Virus record (IMG/VR): IMGVR_UViG_3300029286_002225
Location: 1-21,654 of that record
Reading direction: 5' to 3' (one strand)
Length of the DNA stretch: 21,654 nt
DNA from: a virus
The notes under the pieces are model-generated. The model had not been told where the DNA came from and did not search any database. It was given only the letters and a program-made list of their open reading frames with translations. The position numbers and the translations under genes were made by a program. Shown here in pieces: positions 1,952 to 19,469 of this stretch. Each line of letters starts with the position of its first letter. Positions within the stretch are counted from its first letter, which is position 1.

Positions 1952-1953
1952 TC

Positions 1954-3387
1954 ATGAAAATATTGTGGCTTTATGGAAGCAATGAAGAATGGGATGCTAT
2001 TAACCATTGGTATCATATGGATTGGGCTGAAGTTATTAAACAACAGCCTGGCGTTGAATTAATCGCTTATGGCTGGAATTTAGAACAAACTATATGGAAA
2101 AATTTAGCTCCAATTACTTTTAATACTTCTCTTGATGCTAAAGATTTGAAAAAGGATTTTAATTTCGATGTAATTATAATGGATAATAAAAATAGATTTT
2201 TTAGAAATCCAAAGAAAAAGAAAACTACAGGTTGGTTATCAGATAACTTTTTTGATGGAGTTGACAATATACCAAAAATTATGATAGAAGGAGATTATCA
2301 CCAACATAAATCACAATATTTAAATGAAAATTGGTTTAATAAATCTAAAATAGATTTGCTTTTACATAGGCATATTAGTAATATAGAAAGGTCTAAAAAA
2401 GATTTTCCAGATATTGATTGTGCTTGGCTTCCTTGTTCTGTAGATATTAAAAAATTTAAACCCAATAATTTAATAACAAGAATTCCTAAAATTTGTTTTA
2501 TAGGTGGATGGTCTCCTGGATTATATACTTACAGAAACTTAGCTGGAAATGCTTTAAAATCAACAGAATTATTACAGAATTATACTAAGAGATTATTAGG
2601 AAATGACTATATTAATTGCTTACAGTCTTATGTTTCCCATATAAATTGTTCAAGTAAATATAGCATAACAACTGCAAAAATGTTTGAAATAATGGCAAGT
2701 GGGTCTGTGTTATTTACAGATGCAGCAGAAGATTATGGATTATCTGAACTTTTTCCAAATAATTCATATTGCACTTATAAACGAGATGGAAGTAATGTTA
2801 TAGAAAAAGCTAAATTTATAATAAACGAGCCAGCCTATAGAGATTCAGCAACAAATAAAGCAGTTAAATGTATGCAAGAAAAACATACTCATGAAATACG
2901 AGCCAAAGAATTGATTAAAATAATCGAAAAAAAATTCAATATTAGTGAATCTTCTCTGCCCTTAAAATTAAAAATGATAAATAAAATGTGTTCTATTGAT
3001 GAAATTCAAAAAATATTGCAAATTAAACAATCTAATTTACCTGATACATCTATTGCTTTGAATAATAATAAATTAACTATATATGAACTATATAATAAAA
3101 TTAGTTCTTTAAATATAAAATTTTGGTTATTAAAAGAATCGTGTTTAGAAGTTATGCTTCATTGTAAATTACCAGAAAATCAATTAACTATAGGAGTAGA
3201 AACATCTGAAATAAAGGAATTAATAAAAAATGCGATACAGGATGATAGGGTAATTATTTTTATTGAGCCAAATAGATTTGTTAAAAAAATGATGAGAATA
3301 CACGAAAATGGAATACTTGTTCCTAAACCTGTAGTAGAATATTTGGCTAAATTGTATGGGAACGAAATAAAAATGGATATACAATGA
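1954..3387 (+). CDS. CgeB-like glycosyltransferase fused to a degenerate LicD-like domain
   Basis: This 477-aa protein has two parts. Residues 1-328 look like a GT-B transferase of the Glyco_trans_1_2/CgeB type (PF13524): an M-K-I-L-W-L-Y-G start strand, H-R-H at 138-140, P-C-S-V-D at 160-164, and the nucleotide-sugar-binding region K-M-F-E-I-M-A-S-G-S at 242-251 followed by D-Y-G-L. Residues about 370-472 have no counterpart in the neighbouring paralogue and resemble the LicD/nucleotidyltransferase-like family. They show a K-F-W-L-L strand at 389-393 and a V-P-K-P-x-x-E-Y-L-A-K-L-Y-G ending at 456-469, close to LicD's C-terminal pattern. The usual G-G/T-L-L-G and D-x-D-x-D catalytic positions are absent. 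It starts 2 bases after the MurB-like stop and overlaps the next gene by ATGA. The acceptor is unknown. Confidence 0.75.
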   Translation: MKILWLYGSNEEWDAINHWYHMDWAEVIKQQPGVELIAYGWNLEQTIWKNLAPITFNTSLDAKDLKKDFNFDVIIMDNKNRFFRNPKKKKTTGWLSDNFFDGVDNIPKIMIEGDYHQHKSQYLNENWFNKSKIDLLLHRHISNIERSKKDFPDIDCAWLPCSVDIKKFKPNNLITRIPKICFIGGWSPGLYTYRNLAGNALKSTELLQNYTKRLLGNDYINCLQSYVSHINCSSKYSITTAKMFEIMASGSVLFTDAAEDYGLSELFPNNSYCTYKRDGSNVIEKAKFIINEPAYRDSATNKAVKCMQEKHTHEIRAKELIKIIEKKFNISESSLPLKLKMINKMCSIDEIQKILQIKQSNLPDTSIALNNNKLTIYELYNKISSLNIKFWLLKESCLEVMLHCKLPENQLTIGVETSEIKELIKNAIQDDRVIIFIEPNRFVKKMMRIHENGILVPKPVVEYLAKLYGNEIKMDIQ

Positions 3388-4352
3388 AAATACTTTGGCT
3401 ATACGGATTAATGCCTGGATATGACCATAACCATTGGTATCATATGGGCTTTGCTAAAATACTTAAACAGCAAAATTCTCAAAATTTATTAGCTTATGGA
3501 TTTGGCTTAAAAAATTTATATCCAGACTTAGCTCCTATAGATTTTGATAGCAATATTACTGCATCTGATTTAAAAAAAGAATTTGATTTTGATGTAGTTA
3601 TTATGGATAATAGATATAGATTTTTTCGTAGATTAAATAAATTACAATATAGTAAATTTTTTAATAATTTAACTAATGTTCCTAAAATTATGATTGAGGG
3701 AGATTTTCATTTACATAGACGAGAATATTTAGCTCAAAATTGGTTAAAAAATAATGAAATAGATTTAATATTACACAGGCATTTAAAAAATCTTATTTTA
3801 GGAAAAAAATTATTTCCTGAAATAAATCATTTATGGTTTCCTTGTTCAGTTGACACTGATATTTTTAAACCTAATTTAAGTATTAAAAGAATTCCTTTAA
3901 TATTTACAATAAATTATGGATTTGCTACAAAAATTTATCCATATAGAAATTTAGTAACTAAAATTTTAGAACCTGAACATTTAATTAAAAAATCTAATGG
4001 TGTTTTAGAAAGCACAAATTATATAGAATGTTTACAATCTTATATTTCACATATAAGCGATTCAAGCGTTTGTCATGTAGATGTAGCAAAAATGTTTGAA
4101 ATAATGGCTTCTGGTTCTGTGCTGTTAGCAGATAAGGGAGATGATTATGGATTAAAAAAATTATTTCCTATTAATTCGTATTGTTCTTATAAAAGAGACG
4201 GAAGTGATATTATTGAAATGGCTAAATTAATTATAAATAATAAAGATTATGTGCAAGTTTTAACAAAAAATGGAGTAGATTGTATTAATAAAAAACATAG
4301 TCATATAATAAGAGCTAATGAATTGATAAATATAATTAAGGATATATTATGA
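3384..4352 (+). CDS. CgeB-like glycosyltransferase, paralogue of the preceding gene
   Basis: This 322-aa protein aligns along its whole length with residues 1-328 of the upstream protein. Shared blocks include an M-K-I-L-W-L-Y-G start, N-H-W-Y-H-M, P-K-I-M-I-E-G-D, L-H-R-H, P-C-S-V-D, C-L-Q-S-Y and A-K-M-F-E-I-M-A-S-G-S. It ends where the LicD-like extension of its neighbour begins. The pair is best explained by tandem duplication followed by gain or loss of the extra domain. The GT-B type and PF13524-like C-terminal half suggest sugar transfer from a nucleotide sugar. Both ends use ATGA overlaps (with the gene before at 3384-3387 and after at 4349-4352), so translation is probably coupled. 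Donor and acceptor are not known. Confidence 0.78.
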   Translation: MKILWLYGLMPGYDHNHWYHMGFAKILKQQNSQNLLAYGFGLKNLYPDLAPIDFDSNITASDLKKEFDFDVVIMDNRYRFFRRLNKLQYSKFFNNLTNVPKIMIEGDFHLHRREYLAQNWLKNNEIDLILHRHLKNLILGKKLFPEINHLWFPCSVDTDIFKPNLSIKRIPLIFTINYGFATKIYPYRNLVTKILEPEHLIKKSNGVLESTNYIECLQSYISHISDSSVCHVDVAKMFEIMASGSVLLADKGDDYGLKKLFPINSYCSYKRDGSDIIEMAKLIINNKDYVQVLTKNGVDCINKKHSHIIRANELINIIKDIL

Positions 4353-5122
4353 AAGTTGCTATCATTCTTACAACTTTTTTAAGAGACAATTTGCTATATA
4401 AAACTCTACAAACAATTGTAGATAATCCTGTAAGCGATTGTATACTTTTGATTGCAGACCAGGGGTATTCATCAGATGAGAAAAGCATTACAGTTGATTA
4501 TACAAAATCTCAGATACCATGCGAATATTATAAATTACCATTTGATTGCGGTGCATATTTTGCTCGTAACTTTTTAGTTAAAAAAGCTCAGGAATTAGGA
4601 TGTGATTATTGTTTGATTTCTGCCGATTCAATTCAATTTAAAGAAAAATATAATTTTGAACCCATTATTAATTTTTTAAATAGTAATGAAAAAATAGCTC
4701 TTTGTGGCTTTGAATTGGAAGACAGCAAATGTGCATGGGAGTATGAAATGGAACTTACTAAGAAAGGTATAAAATTTTTATATCCTACTAAATTTATAAC
4801 TGTTAATGAAATAAAATATACAAAAGTAGATATATGTAGAAATATATATCTTGCAAAAACAAAAGCATTAATTGACAGTCCTTATGATGAAGAATTAAAA
4901 TTAGGTGGACATGAATTAAATTTTTGGAATTTAAAACAAAAAGGTTGGGAATGTTATTGGACTGATTCTTTAATATTTAAAAGAGTTTCTAATACTAATA
5001 ATGAATATTCTGAATATAGAAAAAGATTTAGTGATTATTTACAAATAGCTAAACAAAAATTAGGAATAACTGGATGGGTAATTTACCCTCCAAAGATTAG
5101 GACAAAAAATAATTCTAAATAA
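4349..5122 (+). CDS. Small GT-A fold glycosyltransferase (GT2-like)
   Basis: A 257-aa protein with the layout of a compact GT-A transferase: an initial strand A-I-I-L-T-T-F-L-R (4-12), a middle strand ending L-I-A-D-Q-G, then L-P-F-D-C-G-A-Y-F-A-R-N, a helix, and C-D-Y-C-L-I-S-A-D-S where the A-D-S takes the place of the usual metal-binding D-x-D. Near the C terminus G-G-H-E-L-N-F-W fits the acceptor-side G-G-x-E/D motif of GT2 and galactosyltransferase-like enzymes, with E as candidate catalytic base. It overlaps the previous gene by ATGA. The single aspartate in place of D-x-D is a noticeable difference and could alter metal use. Family assignment is by motif only. Confidence 0.68.
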   Translation: MKVAIILTTFLRDNLLYKTLQTIVDNPVSDCILLIADQGYSSDEKSITVDYTKSQIPCEYYKLPFDCGAYFARNFLVKKAQELGCDYCLISADSIQFKEKYNFEPIINFLNSNEKIALCGFELEDSKCAWEYEMELTKKGIKFLYPTKFITVNEIKYTKVDICRNIYLAKTKALIDSPYDEELKLGGHELNFWNLKQKGWECYWTDSLIFKRVSNTNNEYSEYRKRFSDYLQIAKQKLGITGWVIYPPKIRTKNNSK

Positions 5123-5153
5123 TCATAAGTTATTATAAATAAAGGACTTAAAC

Positions 5154-5849
5154 ATGACAAAAAATAAGACAAAAAAAGAGAAAATAATAAAACTTATTGA
5201 TATAACTAAGATACGCTTTGGTATAGAAATTGAAGTTGAATTTTCTAATCCAGAATTGGGAGATAAACTAATTAAAAGACATAAAGTTCTTGATGGCTGG
5301 ACTATAGATTACGATGGAAGTTTGGATGGGGGAGCTGAATATCGCCCAAAAAATAGCAATCATCTTTATTGGAACGAAGAAACTCTAATGGAAATTAAAG
5401 AAATTCTTGCTCTTATAAAGTGCCACAGAGGAAAGGTAAGCAAACGCTGCGGACTCCATATTCACATTGATTGTAAACATTTCTCAGATAAACAAATTTT
5501 ATTCATTATAAAAGAATTTATTGCTTGCCAAAAATATATTGTTAAAACATTTGAAGTCCATCCAGATAGATTAAAAGAAACTTGTCAATTGCTTCCAAGA
5601 GAAGGAATATCTAAATTATCAGAAATACAAATTCATAATTTCAGAAAACAAAGTCAAGAATGGAATTATGATGGATATGATGGCTTACTTGATGAAAAAT
5701 ATCAGGCGTTAAATATTTCACATTTAGCTAAAGGAAATTATTCTACTTTAGAATTTCGATTATTTGATTCTACTCTATCATATAAAAAATTAAAAGCTCA
5801 AATAAAGTGGACTTTAGAATTTATTAAAAGGAGTGTTGAGCGTGAATAA
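5154..5849 (+). CDS. Putative amidoligase (Amidoligase_2-like, COOH-NH2 ligase)
   Basis: This 231-aa protein carries the motif set of the Amidoligase_2 family (PF12224), glutamine-synthetase-fold enzymes predicted to join a carboxylate to an amine with ATP. Visible blocks are F-G-I-E-I-E-V (22-28), D-Y-D-G-S-L (52-57), G-A-E-Y-R-P (60-65), C-G-L-H-I-H-I-D (99-106), Y-Q-A-L-N-I (183-188) and L-E-F-R-L-F (199-204). The glutamates, histidines and final arginine match the expected metal and ATP ligands. AAAGGA precedes the ATG. The 31-base gap upstream is one of the larger ones in this block, but strand and spacing still fit one transcript. Such genes are known in phages and have been proposed to modify cell-wall peptides or proteins; the substrate here is unknown. 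Glycosyltransferases on both sides favour a surface-glycan or glycopeptide role. Confidence 0.78.
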   Translation: MTKNKTKKEKIIKLIDITKIRFGIEIEVEFSNPELGDKLIKRHKVLDGWTIDYDGSLDGGAEYRPKNSNHLYWNEETLMEIKEILALIKCHRGKVSKRCGLHIHIDCKHFSDKQILFIIKEFIACQKYIVKTFEVHPDRLKETCQLLPREGISKLSEIQIHNFRKQSQEWNYDGYDGLLDEKYQALNISHLAKGNYSTLEFRLFDSTLSYKKLKAQIKWTLEFIKRSVERE

Positions 5850-6519
5850 ATGTAAAATTTGTAAAATTCCAATCAGTAAATGGTCTATATTAGGATATTG
5901 TAAATCGTGTTCTAATAAATTTGCACACAAACGAGAAATAACCAAGCATTATTGTATAAACTGTAAAATAAATGAAATTAGTATAACCAATTTTTTATAT
6001 GGAAAACAAAGATGCAGAGTTTGTTCAAAACCAAAAATTAATCCTATGTTTGGTAAGAAAAGACCAGATTTAATTTTAAGAAATATAAAAAATAGAAAAC
6101 ATCCTATTAATCATTGTGTTGATTGTAAAAAAATAATTGCAATTCAATATACCAGATGTGAAAAGTGCTGGCGTAAATTTGCTGTAGGTAAAAATCATCC
6201 TTGTTTTGGAAAAATAGCATCTCATGGAAAATGGTCTAAATATAAAAATACTCGGATGAGAAGTTCATGGGAAATAAAATATGCAAAATATCTTGATAAT
6301 CAAAAAGTTAAATGGTTCTATGAACCAAAGGCGTTTGACTTAGGTAATACAACTTATACTCCAGACTTTTATCTTCCTGAAACTAACGAATATATAGAAA
6401 TAAAAGGATATTGGAGAGATGATGCAAAAATAAAATTTGAATTATTTAAGCAAATATATTCTAAAATAAAAATAACAATTTTAATGAAAAAAGAACTGAA
6501 AAAATTAAAAATAATATGA
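5842..6519 (+). CDS. Freestanding homing endonuclease: zinc ribbons plus PD-(D/E)XK nuclease
   Basis: The protein (225 aa from the chosen start) has three Cys4 zinc-ribbon modules: C4/C7/C20/C23, C38/C41/C58/C61 and C92/C95/C106/C109. NUMOD3-like patches (M-F-G-K-K-R-P and H-P-C-F-G-K) sit between and after them. The C-terminal 90 residues form a PD-(D/E)XK-like nuclease: M-R-S-S-W-E (Glu144), T-P-D-F (Asp175) and Y-I-E-I-K-G (Glu186, Lys188). The zinc modules probably recognise DNA and the C-terminal domain cuts it. GTG 5842 is preferred because AAAAGGAG at 5826-5833 then sits 8 bases upstream; GTG 5833 would overlap that site. It overlaps the amidoligase by 8 bases and the next gene by ATGA. 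The nuclease half is about two-thirds identical by eye to the endonuclease at 13030-13710, while the N-terminal halves differ. Confidence 0.82.
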   Translation: MNKCKICKIPISKWSILGYCKSCSNKFAHKREITKHYCINCKINEISITNFLYGKQRCRVCSKPKINPMFGKKRPDLILRNIKNRKHPINHCVDCKKIIAIQYTRCEKCWRKFAVGKNHPCFGKIASHGKWSKYKNTRMRSSWEIKYAKYLDNQKVKWFYEPKAFDLGNTTYTPDFYLPETNEYIEIKGYWRDDAKIKFELFKQIYSKIKITILMKKELKKLKII

Positions 6520-7577
6520 AAACTCTTACATTAGCCCTTATGGTCAAGAATGAATCTAAGGTAATAGAAAGATGTCTTTCTTCTGTGAAAGATATTGTAG
6601 ATTATATGGTAATAGTTGATACTGGAAGCACAGATAATACAATTGAATTAGTAGAAAATTTTCTTATAAATAATCATATTAAAGGAGAAATTCGTAAAAA
6701 AGATTGGAAAAATTTTGGTCATAATAAAATAGAAACTATTAATTTAGCAAAATCACAAGCTGATTATATTCTTTGGATGGATGCAGATGATGTTATTATA
6801 AATGATAAATTTGATAAAAATCAATTAGTGGATGATGCTTATTATTTAAGATATGATGGAAATCTTGATTATGTTAATTTAAGAATAATAAAAAGTAATT
6901 TAAATTGGAATTGTGTTGGTGTAGTTCATACTTATTTAGATTGTAAAGAAGCTAAACAGCCATTTAAAGAATTAAATACATTAAAAATTAAAACTTTTAA
7001 TGATGGGTCTACTGATAGGGATGATGTAAAATTATTATTAGATGCCCTAAAAGCTGAACCAAATAATAAAAGGTATCATTTTTATTTAGCACAAAGTTAT
7101 AAAGATAAAGGTGATTATAATAATGCTATTATTTATTATAAAAAAAGAATTGATTTAGGTGGATGGGAAGAAGAAATATTTTATAGTAAATATATGATTG
7201 GTTTTTGTTATGAAAGATTAAAAGAAATAGAAAAAGCAAAAAGTTGGTATTTATCTGCATATGAATTTAGACCATCCAGGGCAGAACCTTTGCATAAATT
7301 AATTGTATTATGTAGATATTTAAAAGAATTTAATCAAGCATATTTATTCGCAAAAAAAGCTAATGAAATATCATATCCAAAAGATTTACTTTTTATAGAA
7401 AAACAAATTTATTATTTTAGAATATTAGATGAATTGGCTATCGCAGCTTATTGGATAAAACATTATAGAGAATGTAGACAATTATGTAATATATTATTAA
7501 AAAAAGAACTACCTAAAGAAGATAGAATTAGAATAGAAAATAATTTAAAGTATGCAGAAAAAGGGATAATCAATTGA
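6516..7577 (+). CDS. GT2 glycosyltransferase with C-terminal TPR repeats
   Basis: This 353-aa protein begins with a GT2 GT-A domain: A-L-M-V-K-N-E-S (7-14), V-D-T-G-S-T-D-N (34-41) and the metal-binding W-M-D-A-D-D at 87-92. From about residue 185 it consists of helical pairs with TPR character, such as H-F-Y-L-A-Q-S-Y-K-D-K-G-D-Y-N-N-A and K-Y-M-I-G-F-C-Y-E-R-L-K-E-I-E-K-A. This arrangement is common in bacterial and phage SunS-like or protein-glycosylating transferases, where the TPR part can bind a peptide or glycan acceptor. A protein acceptor is therefore plausible but not shown. It starts in an ATGA overlap with the endonuclease and ends in a TTGA overlap with the next gene. Confidence 0.83.
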   Translation: MKTLTLALMVKNESKVIERCLSSVKDIVDYMVIVDTGSTDNTIELVENFLINNHIKGEIRKKDWKNFGHNKIETINLAKSQADYILWMDADDVIINDKFDKNQLVDDAYYLRYDGNLDYVNLRIIKSNLNWNCVGVVHTYLDCKEAKQPFKELNTLKIKTFNDGSTDRDDVKLLLDALKAEPNNKRYHFYLAQSYKDKGDYNNAIIYYKKRIDLGGWEEEIFYSKYMIGFCYERLKEIEKAKSWYLSAYEFRPSRAEPLHKLIVLCRYLKEFNQAYLFAKKANEISYPKDLLFIEKQIYYFRILDELAIAAYWIKHYRECRQLCNILLKKELPKEDRIRIENNLKYAEKGIIN

Positions 7578-8080
7578 ATTCATATTATATAAAATTAGTT
7601 CTAATGGCTTATTGGAGATTTAGAAGGCAGTGTTTGTGTGCCAACGAAGTTGGTTATGGAATGTGTTTAGCAGATATTATTGTTTTAAAACAAAATAATT
7701 ATATTCATGAAATAGAAATAAAAACATCTAAATCAGATTTATGTATTGCAGAACTTAGAAAAAAGAAACATGATGAAAATAAAAATCCTCATAGTAGAAA
7801 ACCTCATTATTTTTCTTTTGCTGTTCCTACTGATTTAATAGAAGATGCAAAAAAGATTATAGAAAAATTAAATCCTAATTATGGGTTAATAGAAATAACA
7901 AATGAATTCTTTGGTTATAATACTTATCCTGTTACAACTATAAAATTGCCAAAATTGTTACATAATGATATTTCTCAATTAGATTATTGGAAAGAAAAAA
8001 TAAGTTACAGACTTTGTTCAGATTTAATCGGTCATATGAAAGAAGCTCAGAAGGAGATAAATAATGAAAAAACTACTTAA
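7574..8080 (+). CDS. MmcB-like PD-(D/E)XK family protein
   Basis: A 168-aa protein with a short PD-(D/E)XK core: V-G-Y-G-M-C-L-A-D-I-I (26-36) supplies the aspartate (Asp34) and H-E-I-E-I-K-T-S-K-S-D (45-55) the E-x-K. Charged helices with K-K-K-H and then K-P-H-Y-F-S-F-A-V-P follow. The order (A-D strand, E-x-K-x-S strand, K-rich helix, Y-F-x-V-P strand) resembles MmcB/PF06319-type DNA-repair or restriction-like proteins. The TTG start at 7574 overlaps the preceding stop (TTGA) and has AAGGG 8 bases upstream; ATG 7604 is possible but has no visible ribosome site. It is an unusual companion for glycosyltransferase genes; DNA processing or protection is an inference. Confidence 0.62.
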   Translation: MNSYYIKLVLMAYWRFRRQCLCANEVGYGMCLADIIVLKQNNYIHEIEIKTSKSDLCIAELRKKKHDENKNPHSRKPHYFSFAVPTDLIEDAKKIIEKLNPNYGLIEITNEFFGYNTYPVTTIKLPKLLHNDISQLDYWKEKISYRLCSDLIGHMKEAQKEINNEKTT

Positions 8081-8330
8081 CATCAATAAAATCAATAAGT
8101 TATATAAAAATAGTTGTATTTATACCTATAATTTGCCTTTAAAGGGGCAAAAACAGCAGTCAAATTTAACCCATACATACAGCCAAACTACCCTATCAAA
8201 TGCTGCTGTGGCTAATCTGTGCGAAGAAATAGCCCGAAATTACCCCATATGTCCTAATTGTCATAGGTCTTTGCCTAATAATACCTTTTTACATAAAAAT
8301 AGCAAATCGTGTATCTGGTGCAGGGCTTGA
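8064..8330 (+). CDS. Small zinc-ribbon protein of unknown function
   Basis: An 88-aa protein with a polar, poorly structured N-terminal 60 residues and a C-terminal treble-clef or zinc-ribbon-like motif, C-P-N-C-H-R-S-L (63-70) with C-I-W-C just before the end, so four cysteines can hold a zinc ion. AAGGAG at 8051-8056, 7 bases before the ATG, supports the start. The gene overlaps the previous one by 17 bases. Base composition from about 8141 onward is near 40% GC by hand count, clearly above neighbouring genes, which suggests separate origin or a regulatory constraint. The stop codon TGA 8328-8330 lies inside the -35 box of the next promoter. I do not recognise the family. Confidence 0.6.
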   Translation: MKKLLNINKINKLYKNSCIYTYNLPLKGQKQQSNLTHTYSQTTLSNAAVANLCEEIARNYPICPNCHRSLPNNTFLHKNSKSCIWCRA

Positions 8331-8356
8331 CACAGTAGATAGTTTTATGGTATACT
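8327..8356 (+). promoter_or_regulatory. Sigma-70 type promoter
   Basis: A perfect -35 TTGACA lies at 8327-8332 and a -10 TATACT at 8351-8356, 18 bases apart. TGG directly before the -10 gives an extended -10 (TGN). Transcription would start near 8363, leaving about a 17-base leader to the ATG at 8380, with the ribosome site AAAGGTGG at 8367-8374. It lies in the only sizeable non-coding gap of the + strand block, which supports it as a real site. It would drive the cassette from the two-TM gene onward. Confidence 0.78.
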
Positions 8357-8379
8357 ATATATAAAGAAAGGTGGATACC

Positions 8380-8685
8380 ATGTTAAAAAAATGGATATAT
8401 CAAAAATTACTTTATCTTACTAATAATGAAAAAATACCTGTTCAGGAATGGAGAAAAGATGAAATAGAATTCGATATTATCTTTTTTATTATTCTAATTA
8501 TTAGTATTATATTAGGTCTTGGATGCTGGATAGGAGGGGTAGTATTTAAATTTAAAGGATTATTAATTCCTAATCCTGTCCTGTCAGAAATAGGTTCTAT
8601 TTTAATTGAAGGTGGATGGATTTTTGTAGGTGTTATATTTTTTATAGAGGCTTGGGATTCTGTAAGACACAATCGAGAGGATTGA
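8380..8685 (+). CDS. Small two-TM membrane protein
   Basis: A 101-aa protein with a basic, soluble N-terminal ~30 residues, a hydrophobic helix at about 31-54 (I-I-F-F-I-I-L-I-I-S-I-I-L-G), a short loop with L-I-P-N-P, a second hydrophobic helix at about 74-88 (G-G-W-I-F-V-G-V-I-F-F-I) and a polar tail. ATG 8380 is preferred over GTG 8371 because AAAGGTGG at 8367-8374 is then correctly placed upstream. It is the first gene after the promoter at 8327-8356 and sits 1 base before the site-2 protease gene, so it could be that protease's partner or substrate. That is inference from position only. No family is recognised. Confidence 0.68.
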   Translation: MLKKWIYQKLLYLTNNEKIPVQEWRKDEIEFDIIFFIILIISIILGLGCWIGGVVFKFKGLLIPNPVLSEIGSILIEGGWIFVGVIFFIEAWDSVRHNRED

Positions 8686-8686
8686 T

Positions 8687-9262
8687 ATGATATTTATTAT
8701 ATCTCTCATTATAATAATCTTCTTTCATGAATTAGCACATTTAATTGTAGCTAAATTAGTTAAATGTCCAGTGGATGTGTTTTCTGTTGGTTTCGGAAAA
8801 CCAGTCCTATTTTCTAAAAAAATTGGAACTACCATTTATCAAATAACTCCTTGGATACTTGGTGGCTACAATAAATTACAAGATGAATTATCTTTTAATA
8901 GAAATCCAAATACATTTCCTAATTTAAAATATAGATATAAATTTTTAATAGCTGTTGCTGGATGTGCTATAAATATTATAATGGGTTTAATTAGTTATTT
9001 TTTAGGATTGAAATTAAAAAATTTTAATCTATCTTATTTTGGAATGATAAGTTTTTTTATGGGAGCAATGAACTTCTTGCCGATTCCAGCTCTTGACGGA
9101 GGTCTTGTAGTTTACTTACCATTATGCATAAAAATGTTCGGTCAAAAAAGAGGATTGATATTCTTTGGTAAAGTAAGCACAGTATTTTTTATTGTTTTAA
9201 TGGGATTAAATATAATATTTTTACCTTACTTAATTATGTTAATATATCAAGGGAAGATATGA
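8687..9262 (+). CDS. Minimal site-2 protease (M50 family)
   Basis: A 191-aa membrane metalloprotease. The zinc-binding H-E-L-A-H sits at residues 14-18 in the first hydrophobic segment, and N-F-L-P-I-P-A-L-D-G-G at 129-139 supplies the third ligand (Asp137). Both match the M50/RseP-type HExxH and N-x-x-P-x-P-x-x-D-G signatures. Several further hydrophobic stretches (about 84-107, 113-135, 155-185) account for the membrane core. No PDZ domain is present and there is little beyond the catalytic core, so it is smaller than RseP. The family cuts substrates inside membranes, often to release regulators. GAGAGGA before the ATG is the ribosome site, and its end overlaps the transporter gene by ATGA. 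Confidence 0.85.
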   Translation: MIFIISLIIIIFFHELAHLIVAKLVKCPVDVFSVGFGKPVLFSKKIGTTIYQITPWILGGYNKLQDELSFNRNPNTFPNLKYRYKFLIAVAGCAINIIMGLISYFLGLKLKNFNLSYFGMISFFMGAMNFLPIPALDGGLVVYLPLCIKMFGQKRGLIFFGKVSTVFFIVLMGLNIIFLPYLIMLIYQGKI

Positions 9263-10440
9263 AGAATAAAAAATTAATGTGGCTCTATGTTTTATCTGCT
9301 TCGATATACTTCGTTCAAGGAATTGAAGGTTTACCTGGACTTAGTATATTTGCATTTATGAAAGAACATTTACATTTCAGTCCATCTAAAATAATGTATA
9401 TTGGTTCTTTGGTATCGTTAGCCTGGCTGGTAAAACCTTTATTTGGATTTATATCAGATAATTTTTTATCTAATAAAAAATGGATTTTAATTTCACTATT
9501 AGGTAGTTTAGGAATTTGTTTATATTTGGGATTAAGTCCTTATATTCCATTATTTATTTTAATACCCATTTTAATGTTAGCAAATGTAAATGCTGCTATG
9601 CGAGATGTGAGTTGTGATGGGATGATGTGTATTACAGGTAAAAAAACAAATACCTGTAATAAAATACAATCTATTCAATGGATTAGTATTACAGTTGCGT
9701 CTATTTTTGTAGGATTGTTTGGAGGTTATATAGCAGACCATTATTCATATAAAATAGGATATTTATTTTTAATTCCTATCTATTTAATAATTTTAATTAT
9801 TGTATCAAAATATAAAACAATTGTATCAAAAAATAGAACACATGTTCAAAAAAATGAACAATCATTATTACAATCTATTTTATCATATAAAGAATTATTC
9901 ACTAATAAGCAATTTCTCTTAGGTTGCTTATTTTTATTTGTTTATAAATTTGCCCCTGGCTTTGGAACTCCTTTAAGTTTTATAGAACGAGATACTTTTG
10001 GATGGTCTTATACATTTATGTCTATTTTAGGTGCTGTAGGTTCAGTTGTTAGTATTATAGGAGCTATAATTTATTATAAAATAAGTCATAAATTAAATGT
10101 TAAAAAAGTATTATTTTGGAGTATATTCCTTGTTGGTATAACTAATTTGGCTTACCTTTATTTTACACCAGTTACAGATGTTATTTATACCATTATATTC
10201 AGTTTTTTAGGAATGTTTATATTTCTTAATACCATGACCTGGATGGCAAAAAATACTTTATCTGGAAAAGAAGCTACTTCTTTCGCTTTATTATGTAGTA
10301 TAAATAATTTAAGTGGAACATTATCTACATTAACAGGAGCTTGGTTATTTCCGTTATTGGGATTAAAGCTAATTATTGTGTTAGCTTCCATTTCAGCCTT
10401 TGCTTCTTTACCTATTTTAAAGAAATTAGATATTAAATAA
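9259..10440 (+). CDS. MFS transporter of the BT1 (folate-biopterin transporter) type
   Basis: A 393-aa protein made of about twelve hydrophobic segments. The N-terminal pattern Y-F-V-Q-G-I-E-G-L-P-G-L (17-28), followed by A-W-L-V-K-P-L-F-G-F-I-S-D (54-66), matches the BT1/folate-biopterin transporter branch of the MFS (Y-F-x-Q-G ... W-x-x-K-P-L-x-G-x-x-S-D). A-A-M-R-D-V-S-C-D-G near 113-122 corresponds to that family's a-x-x-D-x-x-x-D block. Length fits a 12-TM transporter. BT1 members carry folates or pterins in plants, protists and cyanobacteria; other substrates occur, and an AmpG-like muropeptide permease is an alternative. The ATG overlaps the protease stop as ATGA. A full-length transporter is not typical phage cargo. 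Confidence 0.7.
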   Translation: MKNKKLMWLYVLSASIYFVQGIEGLPGLSIFAFMKEHLHFSPSKIMYIGSLVSLAWLVKPLFGFISDNFLSNKKWILISLLGSLGICLYLGLSPYIPLFILIPILMLANVNAAMRDVSCDGMMCITGKKTNTCNKIQSIQWISITVASIFVGLFGGYIADHYSYKIGYLFLIPIYLIILIIVSKYKTIVSKNRTHVQKNEQSLLQSILSYKELFTNKQFLLGCLFLFVYKFAPGFGTPLSFIERDTFGWSYTFMSILGAVGSVVSIIGAIIYYKISHKLNVKKVLFWSIFLVGITNLAYLYFTPVTDVIYTIIFSFLGMFIFLNTMTWMAKNTLSGKEATSFALLCSINNLSGTLSTLTGAWLFPLLGLKLIIVLASISAFASLPILKKLDIK

Positions 10441-10457
10441 CCTGAAAGGAGAATCAA

Positions 10458-11021
10458 ATGAAAGAAAAACCTGAACAGTATGAAAAAATAGTAAAATATT
10501 CACAAGAATATTATGAGGGAGAATTAAGTAAAGATAGATACCTTTTTCTTTATGGAGCTATCGAATTAGATACTGCTTATGAAATAAATACAAAATTACT
10601 TGTTATGGAAAAGGAAAATAAAGAAAAACCTATTTATTTAGAAATAAATTCGCCTGGTGGTTCAATTATAGATGGTCTTGCTATAATAGACACTATGCAA
10701 CATATTAAGCCCGAAATAATCACTATAGTAAGCGGATTGGCTGCTTCTATGGGAGCAATAATTGCTTCTGCTGGAGATAAAAGATACGCCTATCCAAATG
10801 CTCAAATTATGCTTCACGCAGCATCTGGAATGGTTGGAGATTATATGAATCATATGAAGGACAGAACTGGATGGTTAGAAAAAATAAGCAATAGAATAAA
10901 GAAAATCCTGAAAGAAAAAACTGTATTAACAGAAAAAGAATATTTTAAAATGGATAATGGAGAACTTTGGCTTAATTCCAAAGAAGCTCTTAAATTAAAA
11001 TTAATTGATAAGATAATATGA
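10458..11021 (+). CDS. ClpP-like serine protease (phage S14 type)
   Basis: A 187-aa protein with the ClpP fold: I-Y-L-E-I-N-S-P-G-G-S (59-69) as oxyanion and turn motif, G-L-A-A-S-M-G-A with nucleophile Ser97, Q-I-M-L-H-A-A-S with His120, and Asp166 in K-M-D-N-G-E-L-W, spaced eight residues before S-K-E-A as in ClpP's catalytic Asp region. The triad therefore looks complete. It ends in L-I-D-K-I-I, like ClpP's G-L-I-D-x-I. GAAAGGAGAATCA before the ATG is a strong ribosome site. Phage ClpP-like proteases often process capsid proteins, but here no capsid gene adjoins. Instead it follows a membrane protease and a transporter, so an accessory or regulatory role is possible. Confidence 0.87.
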   Translation: MKEKPEQYEKIVKYSQEYYEGELSKDRYLFLYGAIELDTAYEINTKLLVMEKENKEKPIYLEINSPGGSIIDGLAIIDTMQHIKPEIITIVSGLAASMGAIIASAGDKRYAYPNAQIMLHAASGMVGDYMNHMKDRTGWLEKISNRIKKILKEKTVLTEKEYFKMDNGELWLNSKEALKLKLIDKII

Positions 11022-11146
11022 TAAAATGTCCTATTTGTAATAAAGAAGCAAAAATAGATGAAGATTTAATATATCATTGTTATAGATGTGATATAACATT
11101 TATCATATGTTATCTTAAAGATAAACAAGTATATAGAATATTATGA
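11018..11146 (+). CDS. 42-residue zinc-ribbon mini-protein
   Basis: A short gene between the ClpP-like and DUF115-like genes. It overlaps the upstream stop as ATGA (11018-11021) and the downstream start as ATGA (11143-11146), which is strong architectural support for a real gene. The peptide begins M-I-K-C-P-I-C and contains Y-H-C-Y-R-C about 14 residues later, giving a C-x-x-C ... C-x-x-C pair (C4, C7, C21, C24) that can bind one zinc. It resembles the zinc-ribbon units found in the endonucleases and the 8064 gene, but no nuclease domain follows. Function is unknown; a nucleic-acid or protein adaptor is plausible. Confidence 0.7.
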   Translation: MIKCPICNKEAKIDEDLIYHCYRCDITFIICYLKDKQVYRIL

Positions 11147-11826
11147 TATTAAATGAATGTATAATTATTGGAGGTGGAGATTCGATATCTATTGGTGTAT
11201 CTTTGGGTCTTAAAGAAAAAATAAAAGATAAATTTGTTATAACTACAAATTTTTCTTCCTACCATTTCGATTCTACCTTTACATCTTGCATGGACAATTC
11301 TTTTTATATAGGTAAATTAATATCTAATTCTGATAAAATAAATCAAGAACATGTCAATCATTTAAAATCCCTTCCGCTTATTGTAGCACCTAAAGCCCAT
11401 ATTAGAGCTGATATTTATAATAATACTGTTTTAACTAAAAAAATAAAGCCTGGAGCTTTAACTGGTATTTATACATTAAATTTAGTTTCTTATTTAATGA
11501 ATTATAATGGAATTATTTATTGTTTGGGTTATGATTGGACAAGAAAAACTGAAGAAGAAAAAAAGAAAAATATATTAGCAAAAACTCACTATTATGATAA
11601 TATTAAACATCGAGGCACAGGATTTACAAAGTATTACGAGAATCACAGAGGAATAGAATTTAAGGAATTATTAAAATATAAAAATTTAAAAATATATAAT
11701 GTTAATCCTGATAGTAATTTGGAATATTTTCCTAAAATTACATATGAACAAATGTTTGAATCATTAAATAAAGAAAAATATAATCAAGAAGAAATACGAA
11801 AAGAAATTAAATTGCAGTTCCTGTAA
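11143..11826 (+). CDS. Maf/MptE-like (DUF115) domain protein
   Basis: A 227-aa protein with a Rossmann-like start, C-I-I-I-G-G-G-D-S (6-14), and a later T-G-I-Y-T-L-N-L-V-S-Y-L ... G-I-I-Y-C-L-G-Y-D-W (107-132). This resembles the g-G/S-P-S-L and s-g-G-t-A ... I-Y-L-x-G-x-D signature of the PF01973/DUF115 family, which includes Maf-type flagellin-glycosylation proteins and archaeal MptE. A tail rich in charged residues follows. Together with the sugar genes upstream, a role in glycan transfer or nucleotide-sugar handling is plausible; MptE-like pterin chemistry is the alternative and is notable beside a BT1-like transporter. It starts in an ATGA overlap with the mini-protein and its last 20 bases overlap the end of the opposite-strand gene. 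Confidence 0.62.
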   Translation: MILNECIIIGGGDSISIGVSLGLKEKIKDKFVITTNFSSYHFDSTFTSCMDNSFYIGKLISNSDKINQEHVNHLKSLPLIVAPKAHIRADIYNNTVLTKKIKPGALTGIYTLNLVSYLMNYNGIIYCLGYDWTRKTEEEKKKNILAKTHYYDNIKHRGTGFTKYYENHRGIEFKELLKYKNLKIYNVNPDSNLEYFPKITYEQMFESLNKEKYNQEEIRKEIKLQFL

Positions 11827-13027
11827 TATCATAAGGTATAGAACTAAAATAAAAATCAGTTAAAGTTCCTGAATTATCTTCCCAATAAAAACTCCCTGGA
11901 GTTGTTGGTAAATTTTTGCTATCATCTCCGTTTCCACATCTAAATTGTCGTAAATTAGTATATAAACTTTTTGCAGATATTTTATTTAAATAATAAGAAC
12001 TGCTATCTGAAATATCCACAATCATTTTAGTAGGACTTCCAATTTGCAAACTTGGATAATGAAAATGCCCCAAATTACCAGTATACCAATAATTAAATAA
12101 TTGAATTGGAATATTTATTACATGATTTATAGAATACCATGTTGCATATGTCCATACATATGATGGTGAACTATAAGTTCCTCCAATAACAACAATATTT
12201 TCAGATAAATTTCTTTTAAAAATTTCACTTGTAAATTCGCTATGAGCAGACGAATTAACAGAAACATTTATATTATTATCTGCAAAAAGAGATACTCCCA
12301 ATCCACCCTTAGTAAATCCATTTGTTAAACTAAATGGATGGGTTTCATCCCATCTTGTATGAATAGGAACATCCATTGATTCATTAAAATAAACATCGTT
12401 ATCTATATTACAATTATCTAACCAATTAACCAAATCAAATGTTTCTATTCTTGTAAAATTAAAAGTTAGTAATACTGTTCCCGAAACTGTAATGCTGTCT
12501 TGTTCAGAAGTAATGCCATTAAAAATTATTTTTACATCATAAAGTCCTGTCGCCAATACTATATTTTTTGGATGTTCTCCTGCGTTTCTTGCAGCATATC
12601 CTTGATTTATCCATGTTGGAGAAGAATGTAATTTAGTATATATAACAGCATAATCGATTGTTGCCATTCCATCAATTGAATTTATTTCTTTTCCTTCTGG
12701 ATTATGGCAATGAACTGAAATTTGAGTTGCACCAGCAAGTATATTTAATATATCTTCTATTTCATCTAAACTAACTTCTGCTATCCAATTAAAAGCCCAT
12801 GTTTTCCATGTGCTATATCCATAACCAGCAGCAGTTAAAGCTGTAGCTAAAGTATATCCATATGAAGGAAGTATTTCTATAAGTCCATCTCTTAAACAAT
12901 TAATATCTGATTGTTTTACCCAATCAGAAAATGTATGAGAAATAGGAGAAAATCCCATTGCTACCCTTTTTTCATTTAAAAGAGTTAATATAGAATTCCA
13001 TCTATTATCACCTATCCAATTTGACAT
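11807..13027 (-). CDS. Tail-tip or receptor-binding structural protein (probable)
   Basis: A 406-aa protein at the 3' end of the tail module, the usual place for fibre, baseplate or receptor-binding proteins. It is rich in Ser, Thr, Asn, Tyr and Trp and alternates short hydrophobic strands with polar loops, as in beta-rich virion proteins. A segment around 175-205 (D-V-K-I-I-F-N-G-I-T ... S-G-T-V-L-L-T-F-N-F) looks like an Ig-like or jelly-roll strand set. No enzyme motif or known domain is recognised. The start codon lies 2 bases after the endonuclease stop and has only a weak GGA upstream, so translation may depend on coupling. Its last bases overlap the convergent gene by 20 bp. Confidence 0.6.
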   Translation of the reverse strand: MSNWIGDNRWNSILTLLNEKRVAMGFSPISHTFSDWVKQSDINCLRDGLIEILPSYGYTLATALTAAGYGYSTWKTWAFNWIAEVSLDEIEDILNILAGATQISVHCHNPEGKEINSIDGMATIDYAVIYTKLHSSPTWINQGYAARNAGEHPKNIVLATGLYDVKIIFNGITSEQDSITVSGTVLLTFNFTRIETFDLVNWLDNCNIDNDVYFNESMDVPIHTRWDETHPFSLTNGFTKGGLGVSLFADNNINVSVNSSAHSEFTSEIFKRNLSENIVVIGGTYSSPSYVWTYATWYSINHVINIPIQLFNYWYTGNLGHFHYPSLQIGSPTKMIVDISDSSSYYLNKISAKSLYTNLRQFRCGNGDDSKNLPTTPGSFYWEDNSGTLTDFYFSSIPYDITGTAI

Positions 13028-13032
13028 AATTA
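13025..13032. repeat. Direct repeat CATAATTA at the left boundary of the inserted endonuclease
   Basis: The 8-base sequence CATAATTA (on the - strand TAATTATG, containing the ATG of the tail-tip gene) occurs exactly at the downstream boundary of the endonuclease gene. The same 8 bases are found at its upstream boundary, 13708-13715. Confidence 0.5.
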
Positions 13033-13710
13033 TATTATTCCAAGTTTTTGTAATTCTTTTTTTTCTAAAATAGATAACTTAATATTCTTATATAATTTTT
13101 TAAATATTTTAAATTTCTTTAAAGCATCTTCCCTCCAATAACCTTTTATTTCTATATATAAATCCTGTTCTGGTAAATAGAAATCTGGAGTATATGTTGT
13201 TTCTCCTAAATCAAAAGTTTTGGATTCGTAAATCCATTTAATCCTCTGTCTATCTAAATATTTAGCATATGCTATTTCCCATGAACTTCTCATCCAAATT
13301 CCTTTATATTTACCAGATTTCCCATGATATATTTTACCAAAAGTTCCGCTTTTTTTACCTCTAAAATCTGCATGATTATCACTTAATTTTTTTCTATATT
13401 CTTTACTATATAAACCAATTGTTCCTTTATTCCAAACATCATAATAAGAATTTTTTCTTGCATTTATTTTATAAATTTTAAATTTATTCTGTATTACACA
13501 AACACTGCAATTAAAAAAATTCGCTATTTTTTGTAAAGTATATTTTTGTTTAATATATAATTTAATTAATTCTTTTTTAGAAATATGATATTTAAAATTT
13601 CCATTGAATTTTCCTTGAGCATTGCATTTGCAACATCTTATTGCTCTATTATCTATTAATTTTTTACATATCATGCATTTTTTATTTTTGTTATAATTAT
13701 ATTTTTTCAT
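13030..13710 (-). CDS. Freestanding homing endonuclease: zinc ribbon, HTH and PD-(D/E)XK nuclease
   Basis: A 226-aa protein with one Cys4 unit (C12/C15/C26/C29) containing N-R-A-I-R-C-C-K-C, a helix-turn-helix-like segment at about 47-80 (L-Y-I-K-Q-K-Y-T-L-Q-K-I-A-N-F-F), a NUMOD3-like G-T-F-G-K, and a nuclease core with M-R-S-S-W-E, T-P-D-F (Asp177) and Y-I-E-I-K-G (Glu187, Lys189). The nuclease half matches the endonuclease at 5842-6519 over about 90 residues, roughly two-thirds identical by eye, while the DNA-binding halves are unrelated in detail. It sits between two tail genes with 2-base gaps on both sides and is bounded by an 8-base direct repeat, consistent with insertion exactly at a gene junction. 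There is no clear ribosome site before its ATG. Confidence 0.85.
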   Translation of the reverse strand: MKKYNYNKNKKCMICKKLIDNRAIRCCKCNAQGKFNGNFKYHISKKELIKLYIKQKYTLQKIANFFNCSVCVIQNKFKIYKINARKNSYYDVWNKGTIGLYSKEYRKKLSDNHADFRGKKSGTFGKIYHGKSGKYKGIWMRSSWEIAYAKYLDRQRIKWIYESKTFDLGETTYTPDFYLPEQDLYIEIKGYWREDALKKFKIFKKLYKNIKLSILEKKELQKLGII

Positions 13711-16571: not shown

Positions 16572-19469
16572 TTATTTTCCTTTATCTGTCATTGACCAAG
16601 CTATTCTTTCAACTAATGTAGCGAATTCTGGATTACCTTGCAATAATTCTGTTAATTTTTTACCTGATAAATTAGATAATTCATCTAATGTTCCTTTTGG
16701 TAAATTTATTGTTATACCACCGAATGATGGAGCAATAGTTATATTCTGAGATAAAGCAGTTCTTTCTTTTTCAATATTTGTAATAGCAGATGGTATATTT
16801 ACAGCATTTTTTTCAGATATAGGAATAATTTGTCCACCCCATTGAGATGATTTTCCAGCAAAAAATTCCTGTGCTAATAATTGCTTATTTAATTCTGAAA
16901 ATTTTTCCTGAAATATTGCATATGCACCAGACATTTCTCTTAAATAATTAAACGATATTGTTCCATTTAAAAATTTTGCTATAGTAATCGCTGCTTCGAC
17001 TCCTTCTTCTTGAGCAATTTCATAAATCTTCATAGAATTAGAAGAAAGTTCATTTTGATGTAATTTTTCTCTTGTTAATTCTTTTTCTTTTTCTAATCTA
17101 TAATCTAATGAACTTTTAATTGCATTTTCACCATATAACTGCATCTTCAAAGCAGAATCTAATTCAAATAATTGTCTTGAGCTTGCTCCTCTTATTCTTG
17201 CTAAATCTACTTCATGGGATATTAATTTGTTACTTGTTGCTATTGTTGTTTCTAATAATTTATTTTCTAATTCTCTTAATTTAATACTTCTTTCTTGTTC
17301 TGTTTCAAATTGAGATTCTGCTTTAGTAGTCTGTTCTATTTCTTTCAAAATCAATGCTATTTCGCTACTTTCTTGTGATTTTAATTTTATTAATTCTTCT
17401 TGATTATCTAATCTTTCTTTGTCCTTAAATCCTAAACTTCCTGTTAATTCTAATTCAAGTTTTGCTGCATCTGCAAGTAGTTTTTTATCAATTGATTGAG
17501 ATTTATATGCTAATTTTTGTTTTTCTGCTTCAGTAGATTGTTCATTTAAGGATTTTTCTATATCTGAATTTATAGCATTAATAGTATTGCCCAATACCTG
17601 CAATTCTCTTTCTCCAGCAACCCCCACTTTACTTATATATTTTTCTATAGTATTTTTTTTCTGTTCTTCTAACATCATTTGCTTCGGTTTAAATTGAATT
17701 TCTACTTCTAAATCTATTTGGTCTAATGCTAATTGTTCACTTATGTTATCTATCTGTGCTTTTAATTTTTCAGGATTGCTTTTAATATTAAATTCTAAGT
17801 CAGGAAATTTTGTTTTTATATTTTCTAATACAGTATTTATTTTTTCTAAATTAGCAATATTTTCTCCTGTTTGTGGAGCTTTTTCTAATTTTTCTTTTAT
17901 ACTTATTAGTTCTGAAACAGAATCTATTTGACTTCTTCTATTTTTTATATCATTTAAAGTAACTGAATTTACTTCTTCGACTGCTAATTTCCAGGCTTTT
18001 TCTTTATCTATAAACATTGTCATCGTAATCAATAAATTTTTCCAAGAATCTAATGCTACTTTAAATGCACCAGTATTTGCCATAGAATCCGTTAAATCAT
18101 TCCATGCACTTGCTACTGCTGTTAATTTAAATTTTGTCGTTTCTTGAATTATTCCAAAAGCTCTTTCTGCATTACCAGCAGCAGTTAAAGCTGTTATTCT
18201 TGCTTCTATTGCCCTATTATAATTCTGCATTAAAGCATTAAATACAGTCATCTGTCTCATAGACCCGACAGATTTTGCTATAGATAATTTTTCTGATTTT
18301 TCTAAACCTTCCCATCTTAGAGCTAAATCCCCTAAAATATCTGCATGACTTCTTAATTTATTAGTTAAAGCAGATGTAGCATTTCCTTGAGCATCTAAAT
18401 AAAATGGAATTTTTGCTACTTGTTCTACTGTTTCTTTTCCTACAGTTAATAATCTTGCATATATAAATGATAATGCTCTTGCTGCTTCAGAACCAGATTT
18501 TCTTGTAACTTCTATAACAGCAGTAACATCTCCTAAAAATGAAGATACTGTAACTCCTAATTGATGTGCAGTAGCACCTGCAACTTTAGTAGCATCAGCC
18601 AAATCTTTAGCTGTAACAGCAAATTCTTTTTCTACTGCAACCCATTTATCCAAAATTGAAGTTGTATCTAATATAGGAATATTAAATCCTTCAACCGCAG
18701 CAGTTAAATTATCTACAACAGTTTTTATATCTGTTCCTAATGCTTTAGCACCAATCATTGCTGCTTTTGTTAAAACTATTGATTCTGAAACTGACCTACC
18801 TTGCTGAACAAATATTTGAGCTGCATCTAACGCTTCAGATGCACTTGTTCCATATACTACTGATAAAGATATAAGACTTGTTTTTAAATTATCAAATTCT
18901 TCAGCAGTTCCTTTACCAACTATTTTAATACGAGCCATAGCTTCTTCCATATCAAGTAAAAACTTAATCTGAGAAGAAATTAATGATGTTACTCCTTGAA
19001 TAGCTGACCTCATTATCATCCATATAGGAGCAACTATTACAGCTCGTTTCATAGCATTTACAAAATCGCTCATTCCAACGGATGCTTTTTTTAAATCTTG
19101 GACATTAGTTTTTAATACCTTTCCTTGAGCATCAAATTGAGTAGTAACTTGTTTCATTACTCCAGATTGATTTTTTAATTTTTCAGTTACTACAGTTCCT
19201 GCTACATTTCCAAATTCATCATAAGTATTTTTAGATAATTTTAATATACTTGTAAATCCTGCTAAATCTTGAGATAAAGCACCCAATCCTGTTCCTGCTA
19301 CTTTTGCTTTGTCTCCTATATTATTTAAAGCTGCTCCAGCTTTATTTACATTTCCAGTATCCCAGGGCAGAGTAAGTTGCTGTTCTACTTTTTTAGCTTC
19401 AGCAACTGCTTTTTCACTGCCAATTGTGTTGAATACTATGTTTATTAGATAGTTATAAAATGAGTCCAT
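16572..19469 (-). CDS. Phage tail tape-measure protein (TP901 core type)
   Basis: A 965-aa protein, the largest in the window. The core at about 165-500 shows the typical tape-measure region: an M-E-E-A-M-A-R-I start, G-T-S-A-S-E-A-L-D-A-A-Q-I-F, K-D-L-A-D-A-T-K-V-A-G-A-T-A and the A-Y/F-x-x-L-T-x-x-x-K-x-S-G-S/A-x-A-A-R-A-L pattern (R-K-S-G-S-E-A-A-R-A-L-S-F-I). A long charged helical, coiled-coil-rich section at about 500-870 and a hydrophobic stretch near 145-175 follow expectation. Using the general rule of about 0.15 nm per residue, the tail would be roughly 145 nm long. It lies between the chaperone-like genes and the Dit-like gene. AGAGGTAATTTT precedes the ATG. Confidence 0.93.
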   Translation of the reverse strand: MDSFYNYLINIVFNTIGSEKAVAEAKKVEQQLTLPWDTGNVNKAGAALNNIGDKAKVAGTGLGALSQDLAGFTSILKLSKNTYDEFGNVAGTVVTEKLKNQSGVMKQVTTQFDAQGKVLKTNVQDLKKASVGMSDFVNAMKRAVIVAPIWMIMRSAIQGVTSLISSQIKFLLDMEEAMARIKIVGKGTAEEFDNLKTSLISLSVVYGTSASEALDAAQIFVQQGRSVSESIVLTKAAMIGAKALGTDIKTVVDNLTAAVEGFNIPILDTTSILDKWVAVEKEFAVTAKDLADATKVAGATAHQLGVTVSSFLGDVTAVIEVTRKSGSEAARALSFIYARLLTVGKETVEQVAKIPFYLDAQGNATSALTNKLRSHADILGDLALRWEGLEKSEKLSIAKSVGSMRQMTVFNALMQNYNRAIEARITALTAAGNAERAFGIIQETTKFKLTAVASAWNDLTDSMANTGAFKVALDSWKNLLITMTMFIDKEKAWKLAVEEVNSVTLNDIKNRRSQIDSVSELISIKEKLEKAPQTGENIANLEKINTVLENIKTKFPDLEFNIKSNPEKLKAQIDNISEQLALDQIDLEVEIQFKPKQMMLEEQKKNTIEKYISKVGVAGERELQVLGNTINAINSDIEKSLNEQSTEAEKQKLAYKSQSIDKKLLADAAKLELELTGSLGFKDKERLDNQEELIKLKSQESSEIALILKEIEQTTKAESQFETEQERSIKLRELENKLLETTIATSNKLISHEVDLARIRGASSRQLFELDSALKMQLYGENAIKSSLDYRLEKEKELTREKLHQNELSSNSMKIYEIAQEEGVEAAITIAKFLNGTISFNYLREMSGAYAIFQEKFSELNKQLLAQEFFAGKSSQWGGQIIPISEKNAVNIPSAITNIEKERTALSQNITIAPSFGGITINLPKGTLDELSNLSGKKLTELLQGNPEFATLVERIAWSMTDKGK

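Follow-up and report, generated by a model that had tools for sequence, protein, structure and literature searches.

The DNA analysed here (the window) is a 21,654-nucleotide stretch of the IMG/VR virus record IMGVR_UViG_3300029286_002225, and the locus of interest is a run of coupled genes on its plus strand. The run opens at 8380–8685 with a 101-aa protein that has two hydrophobic segments and no family (ATG 8380 is its best start, and GTG 8371 is disfavoured), followed at 8687–9262 by a 191-aa M50 site-2 protease (S2P; Pfam PF02163, 6.9e-29). The start of the next gene, a 393-aa BT1-family MFS transporter (9259–10440; PF03092, 4.5e-25), overlaps the S2P stop codon as ATGA. Then come a 187-aa ClpP-like (S14) serine protease at 10458–11021 (CLP_protease PF00574, 1.6e-43; phrog_94, 8.4e-45; ClpP matches in the PDB) and a 42-aa zinc-ribbon-like mini-protein at 11018–11146 (CPIC...CYRC), which has ATGA overlaps with both neighbours. 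The Pfam scores for M50, BT1 and CLP_protease are all well over their cut-offs, and a preliminary description of the sequence had named these genes correctly, although the zinc-ribbon frame is weakly supported (best Pfam E value 0.019, under the cut-off). The coupled run extends past that frame up to 11826, closing with a 227-aa gene (11143–11826, start set by the overlap) that carries an IIGGG motif, has no Pfam family and whose homologue is the end of the same-strand block in related phages. The run was also described as other than virion genes, and indeed it contains no head or tail gene, the tail genes of the window lying on the opposite strand. An Rfam search of the window gave no match.

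Directly upstream, a perfect predicted promoter at 8327–8356 of the plus strand consists of TTGACA (8327–8332), an 18-nt spacer that ends in a TG extended -10 (TG-G), and TATACT (8351–8356), with a predicted start near 8363 and a Shine-Dalgarno sequence, AAAGGTGG (8367–8374, plus strand), serving ATG 8380. Nowhere else in the window does a site reach 11 of 12 matches plus the TG, where dinucleotide shuffles lead us to expect 0.17 such sites per window. The opening 20 kb of a related phage, G005, contain five copies of the exact form TTGACA-N17/18-TGnTATACT (for the 17-nt form with up to one mismatch the shuffle expectation is about 0.01) and another, L021, contains two, and six of these seven copies are followed by a Shine-Dalgarno sequence and a start codon. 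These data show that the module of the window lies under a predicted promoter of phage sigma-70 type, as had been proposed. In the other module phages the gene set lies within long same-strand runs that do not have this promoter type directly 5'.

We then ask whether the gene set exists elsewhere, a search the preliminary description had suggested. Single-sequence pattern scans (M50, BT1, ClpP and a 675-aa tail protein) gave no matches; finding relatives took alignments. The same string turns out to occur in many other IMG/VR contigs: at least 10 further non-duplicate phage contigs, the largest of 106 kb, carry S2P and BT1 and usually ClpP, and scans with M50 only or with BT1 only each reach contigs holding the remaining module genes. 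These contigs add two genes that are absent from the 21.6 kb fragment, one for a peptide deformylase and one for a peptidase that can be either an aminopeptidase or an M16 enzyme. The peptidase slot is filled by M16 in G001, G005 and G006, by M17 in G004, L082 and L094, and by M42 in L091, and the presence of unrelated peptidases in one module suggests peptide breakdown as the common theme. An HslV-like gene read by eye in L086 has no support from Pfam. Deformylase, S2P, BT1 and ClpP keep an unchanged order in L090; in distant members (BT1 about 31% identical) the set persists with its order changed, as in L091 and L092, where the same four genes lie inside about 7 kb. Some of this common order could come simply from the phages being related by descent. 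Taken together, the contigs show a conserved module of a tailed-phage group, made up of deformylase, an S2P that does not have a PDZ domain, a variable soluble peptidase, BT1 and mostly ClpP. Like other phages with an auxiliary peptide deformylase, the module phages carry a deformylase gene, here adjoining S2P; what sets them apart is that it is tied to S2P, a BT1 transporter and ClpP.

The combination had been called unusual, and it is rare: among the 50,697 records of INPHARED there is no true relative of the window S2P or BT1. Of the INPHARED M50 matches, the three records read (MT835981, MT836562 and MT838244) carry the label 'Bacteriophage sp.' but consist of dxr-rseP-ispG-polC DNA from bacteria, and the named ones are bacterial RseP genes. 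Of the earlier suggestion that the cassette is a prophage moron, the own promoter stands and the recent insertion does not. A moron would be a recent insertion absent from close relatives, whereas this module is common to at least 10 phage contigs and is an ancestral, conserved feature of the group. A simple scan of 7800–12200 found no terminator-like site. No relative of the two-hydrophobic-segment protein that opens the run could be detected among the other module phages, which makes this protein unlikely to be the conserved S2P substrate; a 144-aa TM protein found in those phages was considered as its homologue, and no homology was found.

The S2P carries the motifs of an RseP-type core: HELAH at residue 14, GFG, GGY and PALDGG with D137. 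H14, E15, H18 and D137 are invariant in an alignment of 11 viral S2P sequences, and with HExxH, LDG as third ligand and a multi-TM core the protein belongs in the M50 superfamily. Its AF2 model (pLDDT 89.2) matches Aquifex RseP (9j82) with Z 17.6 over 185 of 191 residues; Z values are 17.6 and 17.5 for RseP against 10.4 for MjS2P and 9.9 for SpoIVFB, and the model strands 29–36, 42–46, 49–53 and 56–64 align to RseP as its membrane-reentrant beta-loop. With RseP and other Group I enzymes (M50B) it shares HExxH, the beta-loop region with GFG and GGY, the G..N motif and the LDG motif. However, it has neither the PDZ domain nor the post-PDZ region between TM2 and TM3: the gap from HExxH to LDG is 123 residues (122–153 across the module phages) compared to about 275–375 in the cellular RseP proteins measured, and a 12-residue link joins the two matched halves. 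By sequence and predicted structure, then, this is an RseP core from which PDZ is cleanly absent. Since Group I is defined by one or more PDZ domains between TMH2 and TMH3 (PMC7728848), the protein is RseP-like in its core, yet not a member of Group I in that sense. It further differs from RseP (350–450 aa) in being 191 aa long, phage-borne and placed inside a peptidase module. In 193 Omnitrophota genomes, by comparison, the M50 profile breaks near position 107 within frames of about 350–470 aa; a few frames were shorter, and these we took as contig ends. Short M50 proteins from such genomes (L040, L047, L048) look like a different, non-RseP type of S2P. Viral M50 proteins of uncultured phages are also present in BFVD (A0A6J5SMS1 and A0A6J5RHB6, 184 and 268 aa), but their identity to the window M50 is just 17–20%. 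PDZ-less RseP cores do occur in several unrelated phages (L006–L008, L009, L010–L016, L019, L096). An open literature search returned no paper pairing phage-encoded with intramembrane protease. S2Ps are ancient regulators restrained by PDZ domains, and a phage lineage that has time and again kept the core and dropped the gate, with one set of processing enzymes and a transporter always alongside, would provide an ungated S2P from nature and a clue to the advantage that intramembrane proteolysis brings to phages.

The transporter is a BT1-family member (PF03092, 88.7 bits against a cut-off of 22) with an MFS fold in its AF2 model (pLDDT 89.1), and the fold matches name no solute. A search of 84,980 species returned cellular relatives from omnitrophote MAGs only (one titled just 'bacterium'), with strong orthologues in 37 of the 193 Omnitrophota genomes searched; plasmids and INPHARED gave no match. 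Omnitrophota genes are 46–51% identical to the window BT1, and in the three loci read the orthologues stand in the order pgk-tpiA-secG-BT1. The phage proteins nonetheless form a separate clade (97/98), sister to the Omnitrophota orthologues, and this tree shows that the phage and chromosomal genes share ancestry. Because the closest cellular BT1 genes found are all in Omnitrophota, the phage host is probably a member of this uncultured bacterial phylum, and the module would then be a handle on its viruses. When 384 Omnitrophota genomes were searched for prophages, neither the 593-aa head protein nor the TM144 family gave a full-length match, so that the host assignment rests on one gene family and a pattern-limited scan.

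How might these genes work together? We propose, with a probability of roughly 45%, that the module serves to process and recycle peptides and proteins in the course of infection with the help of an ungated S2P. The S2P would cut signal peptides, membrane stubs and membrane proteins of small size, and might also act on host regulators that are still intact or on small toxins of the membrane, while ClpP would degrade soluble proteins. Deformylase would remove N-formyl groups and so open the way for aminopeptidases. The MFS protein would transport either a product or some small solute that is required across the membrane. The phage would probably gain amino acids in this way and be rid of host membrane proteins that stand in the way of infection. 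The window fragment itself has neither deformylase nor aminopeptidase, which counts against a peptide-processing reading.

Alternatively, the S2P could mimic a permanently activated RseP, cutting anti-sigma factors or single-pass regulators with no need of a site-1 cut and so redirecting host transcription, its neighbours having separate jobs. The RseP PDZ acts as a size-exclusion filter, and E. coli RseP freed of PDZ control cleaves RseA independently of site-1 (PMC7728848); the PDZ-less cores of unrelated phages fit as well, as does L094, a phage of the module type in which a trypsin-fold protease whose N-terminus carries a hydrophobic segment lies near the S2P, an arrangement resembling a site-1/site-2 pair. 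We consider such a takeover unlikely: it leaves the constant link with deformylase, BT1 and aminopeptidases unexplained, and no phage sigma or anti-sigma target was identified. It is less likely again that S2P and ClpP serve to remove host defence proteins, especially Hok-type small membrane toxins or other abortive-infection membrane effectors. RseP does cleave and neutralise HokB (PMC10470546), and the module sits in the non-structural genome arm, with its own promoter in the window copy; however, neither a defence gene nor an antitoxin lies among its genes, and the presence of deformylase and aminopeptidase beside them is again unaccounted for. More speculatively, and in our judgement improbably, ungated intramembrane proteolysis could rewire host membrane signalling or make a secreted peptide signal, with S2P freeing membrane peptides, deformylase and aminopeptidase trimming them and the MFS protein moving them. 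If true, loss of the PDZ gate would amount to a strategy general among phages, because several phages that do not carry the module have PDZ-less RseP cores too.

Equally improbable is that the ClpP-like protein is a displaced head-maturation protease with S2P and BT1 as unrelated passengers. The protein scores 149 bits to PF00574 and shares with ClpP/S14 enzymes, phage head-maturation proteases included, the fold family and the Ser and His (Ser97 and His120, invariant in an alignment of five phage sequences), and its best PHROG match is the head-maturation family phrog_94. It differs in having Glu169 aligned with what we take to be the catalytic Asp position, and in falling under all equivalog cut-offs: it reaches 107.6 bits of the 120 needed for the head-maturation model NF045542, which generic Clp models outscore, and 120.4 of 308.6 for the ClpP equivalog TIGR00493. 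Nor does it stand beside head genes: the putative portal, 593-aa and 317-aa genes of G001 and G005 cluster on the other strand, distant from ClpP, and G006 (a record that may be incomplete) has the 593-aa head-region gene without ClpP; the 593-aa protein itself, as read by eye, may resemble a protease-scaffold. The ClpP is therefore probably not the head protease. It is duplicated in G007.

Least probable of all is an auxiliary-metabolism cassette in which BT1 imports folate or pterin for formyl-methionine and nucleotide synthesis and the proteases are incidental: the Pfam match, a partial score to the folate/biopterin model TIGR00788 of NCBIfam and the association with deformylase, a part of formyl-methionine metabolism, speak for it, but that score is 73 bits against a cut-off of 216.4 (the AmpG subfamily cut-off is missed too), a regular-expression motif screen of G001 and G005 found no thymidylate-synthase pattern, and the host BT1 orthologue keeps its place among glycolysis genes and secG.

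We find that the gene string of the window, which the preliminary description had taken for an accessory cassette with its own promoter, recurs in other phages. Alignment-based IMG/VR scans started independently from the M50 site-2 protease (S2P) and from the BT1 transporter reach the same contigs, and the string is present in G001 (L017/L022), G002 (L020), G004 (L023), G005 (L024), G006 (L025) and G007 (L026), in L082/L083 and L086, and in the more distant L090, L091 and L092. The usual order is an SMC/RecN-like gene, a 144-aa TM protein, peptide deformylase, S2P, an M16/M17 peptidase, BT1, ClpP and a metallophosphatase (deformylase, M16, M17 and M42 identities are Pfam-confirmed in these phages). 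Even where gene order is altered and BT1 identity is only ~31% (L091, L092), deformylase, S2P, BT1 and ClpP still lie inside ~7 kb. Partial sets occur as well: in L021, BT1 and ClpP lack a neighbouring S2P, and in L094 deformylase, S2P, ClpP and M17 occur without BT1. Flanks of other-type phage S2Ps (L006-L010, L013, L019, L093, L096) contain no module partners. Shared phage descent may explain part of the synteny.

The best-supported reading is a putative peptide-processing and proteolysis module, in which peptides and proteins would be processed and broken down with the S2P acting ungated. The module is conserved among these phages and, with its PDZ-less S2P, is a variation on known kinds. 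No such module was found in the annotated phages searched (INPHARED), where MT835981, MT836562 and MT838244 ('Bacteriophage sp.') are bacterial chromosomal DNA (dxr-rseP-ispG-polC).

The window M50 (8687-9262; Pfam E = 6.9e-29) resembles RseP in both halves: phmmer against PDB pairs residues 2-105 with the N-terminal half of Aquifex RseP and residues 118-144 with its C-terminal LDG region, and comparison of the AF2 model (pLDDT 89.2) with RseP gives Z 17.6 across 185 residues (SpoIVFB, Z 9.9; MjS2P, Z 10.4). It differs in lacking the PDZ domain, ~250 residues of Aquifex RseP between the aligned parts being absent. In module phages 122-153 residues separate HExxH from LDG; other phage S2Ps have 146-204, and the measured cellular RseP proteins have 275-375. 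Across 193 Omnitrophota genomes, N-terminal matches end near position 107 within frames of ~350-470 aa, the few shorter frames being taken as contig ends. The PDZ tandem of E. coli RseP acts as a size-exclusion filter, and its impairment leads to unregulated cleavage of intact RseA (PMC7728848); the phage S2P should therefore be ungated. Small membrane proteins are RseP substrates as well, and the toxin HokB is one of those degraded (PMC10470546). Takeover of host signalling and anti-defence directed at small membrane proteins are rival readings, less well supported than peptide processing and proteolysis; folate import by BT1 and a ClpP that is a displaced head protease are two more. PDZ-less RseP cores (gap 146-204) with flanks free of the BT1 module also occur in L009, L010-L016, L019, L006-L008 and L096. 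In L094 (5974-6732 and 8953-9636), a trypsin-fold protease with an N-terminal hydrophobic segment lies ~2 kb from a PDZ-less S2P, reminiscent of a DegS/RseP site-1/site-2 pair.

The ClpP-like protein (10458-11021) retains the catalytic Ser and His, with Glu aligned where the catalytic Asp is expected. Its top PHROG is head maturation, as a displaced head protease would have it, but it falls below equivalog cut-offs, its gene stands apart from the putative head cluster, and record G006, which may be incomplete, carries a 593-aa head-region gene and no ClpP. We read it as a probable accessory protease.

The window (21,654 bases, G+C 26%, an IMG/VR virus record) is a real tailed-phage fragment, since tape measure and hub-like genes occupy its minus strand at 14-20 kb. 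Around the cassette, the amidoligase, the 11143 gene and the convergent tail genes have matches in G001 and in further members of the group; deformylase and aminopeptidase are missing from this fragment. The predicted promoter at 8327-8356 (TTGACA-18-TATACT, extended -10) is followed by AAAGGTGG and the ATG at 8380, and sites of its quality are expected by chance 0.17 times per window. The best support for it comes from comparison: the related phage G005 has five copies of the exact motif TTGACA-N17/18-TGnTATACT in its first 20 kb and L021 has two, and six of these seven copies lie directly 5' of an SD and start codon. Downstream, the two-TM protein, M50, BT1, ClpP, zinc-ribbon ORF and a sixth gene ending at 11826 overlap or almost abut. 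The cassette is borne out, and its earlier interpretation is partly supported. In L009 the S2P gene lies immediately downstream of TTGACA-17-TGnTATACT (7938-7966), and an Omnitrophota genome has a single copy of the motif downstream of its BT1 gene (L032:7961-7989).

Scanning 84,980 species with the BT1 alignment yielded seven loci; six carry Omnitrophota or Omnitrophica in their titles, and the seventh is a MAG with identical gene context. BT1 follows pgk, tpiA and secG in all three loci read. Of 193 Omnitrophota genomes, 37 have strong orthologues (455-512 bits), and in the tree the phage genes form one clade (97/98) beside these orthologues. The host is likely to be an omnitrophote; this falls short of proof because the scan is pattern-limited and a search of 384 Omnitrophota genomes gave no prophage of the group. 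The group may be temperate, since G001 (8595-9455) and G005 (18182-18988) encode tyrosine recombinases of the phage-integrase family. G005 also has a tRNA-Thr (L063:4541-4615), and a short insertion splits BT1 into two ORFs at L017:9736-11105 (G001:41897-43263).

Elsewhere in the window, positions 102-7577 hold a big sugar-surface cluster (pyruvyl transferase, MurB-like protein, several glycosyltransferases, amidoligase). Three dispersed, free-standing zinc-finger/endonuclease-like genes (5833-6519, 13030-13710, 20753-21544) are probably homing endonucleases, and similar genes also interrupt related phages.
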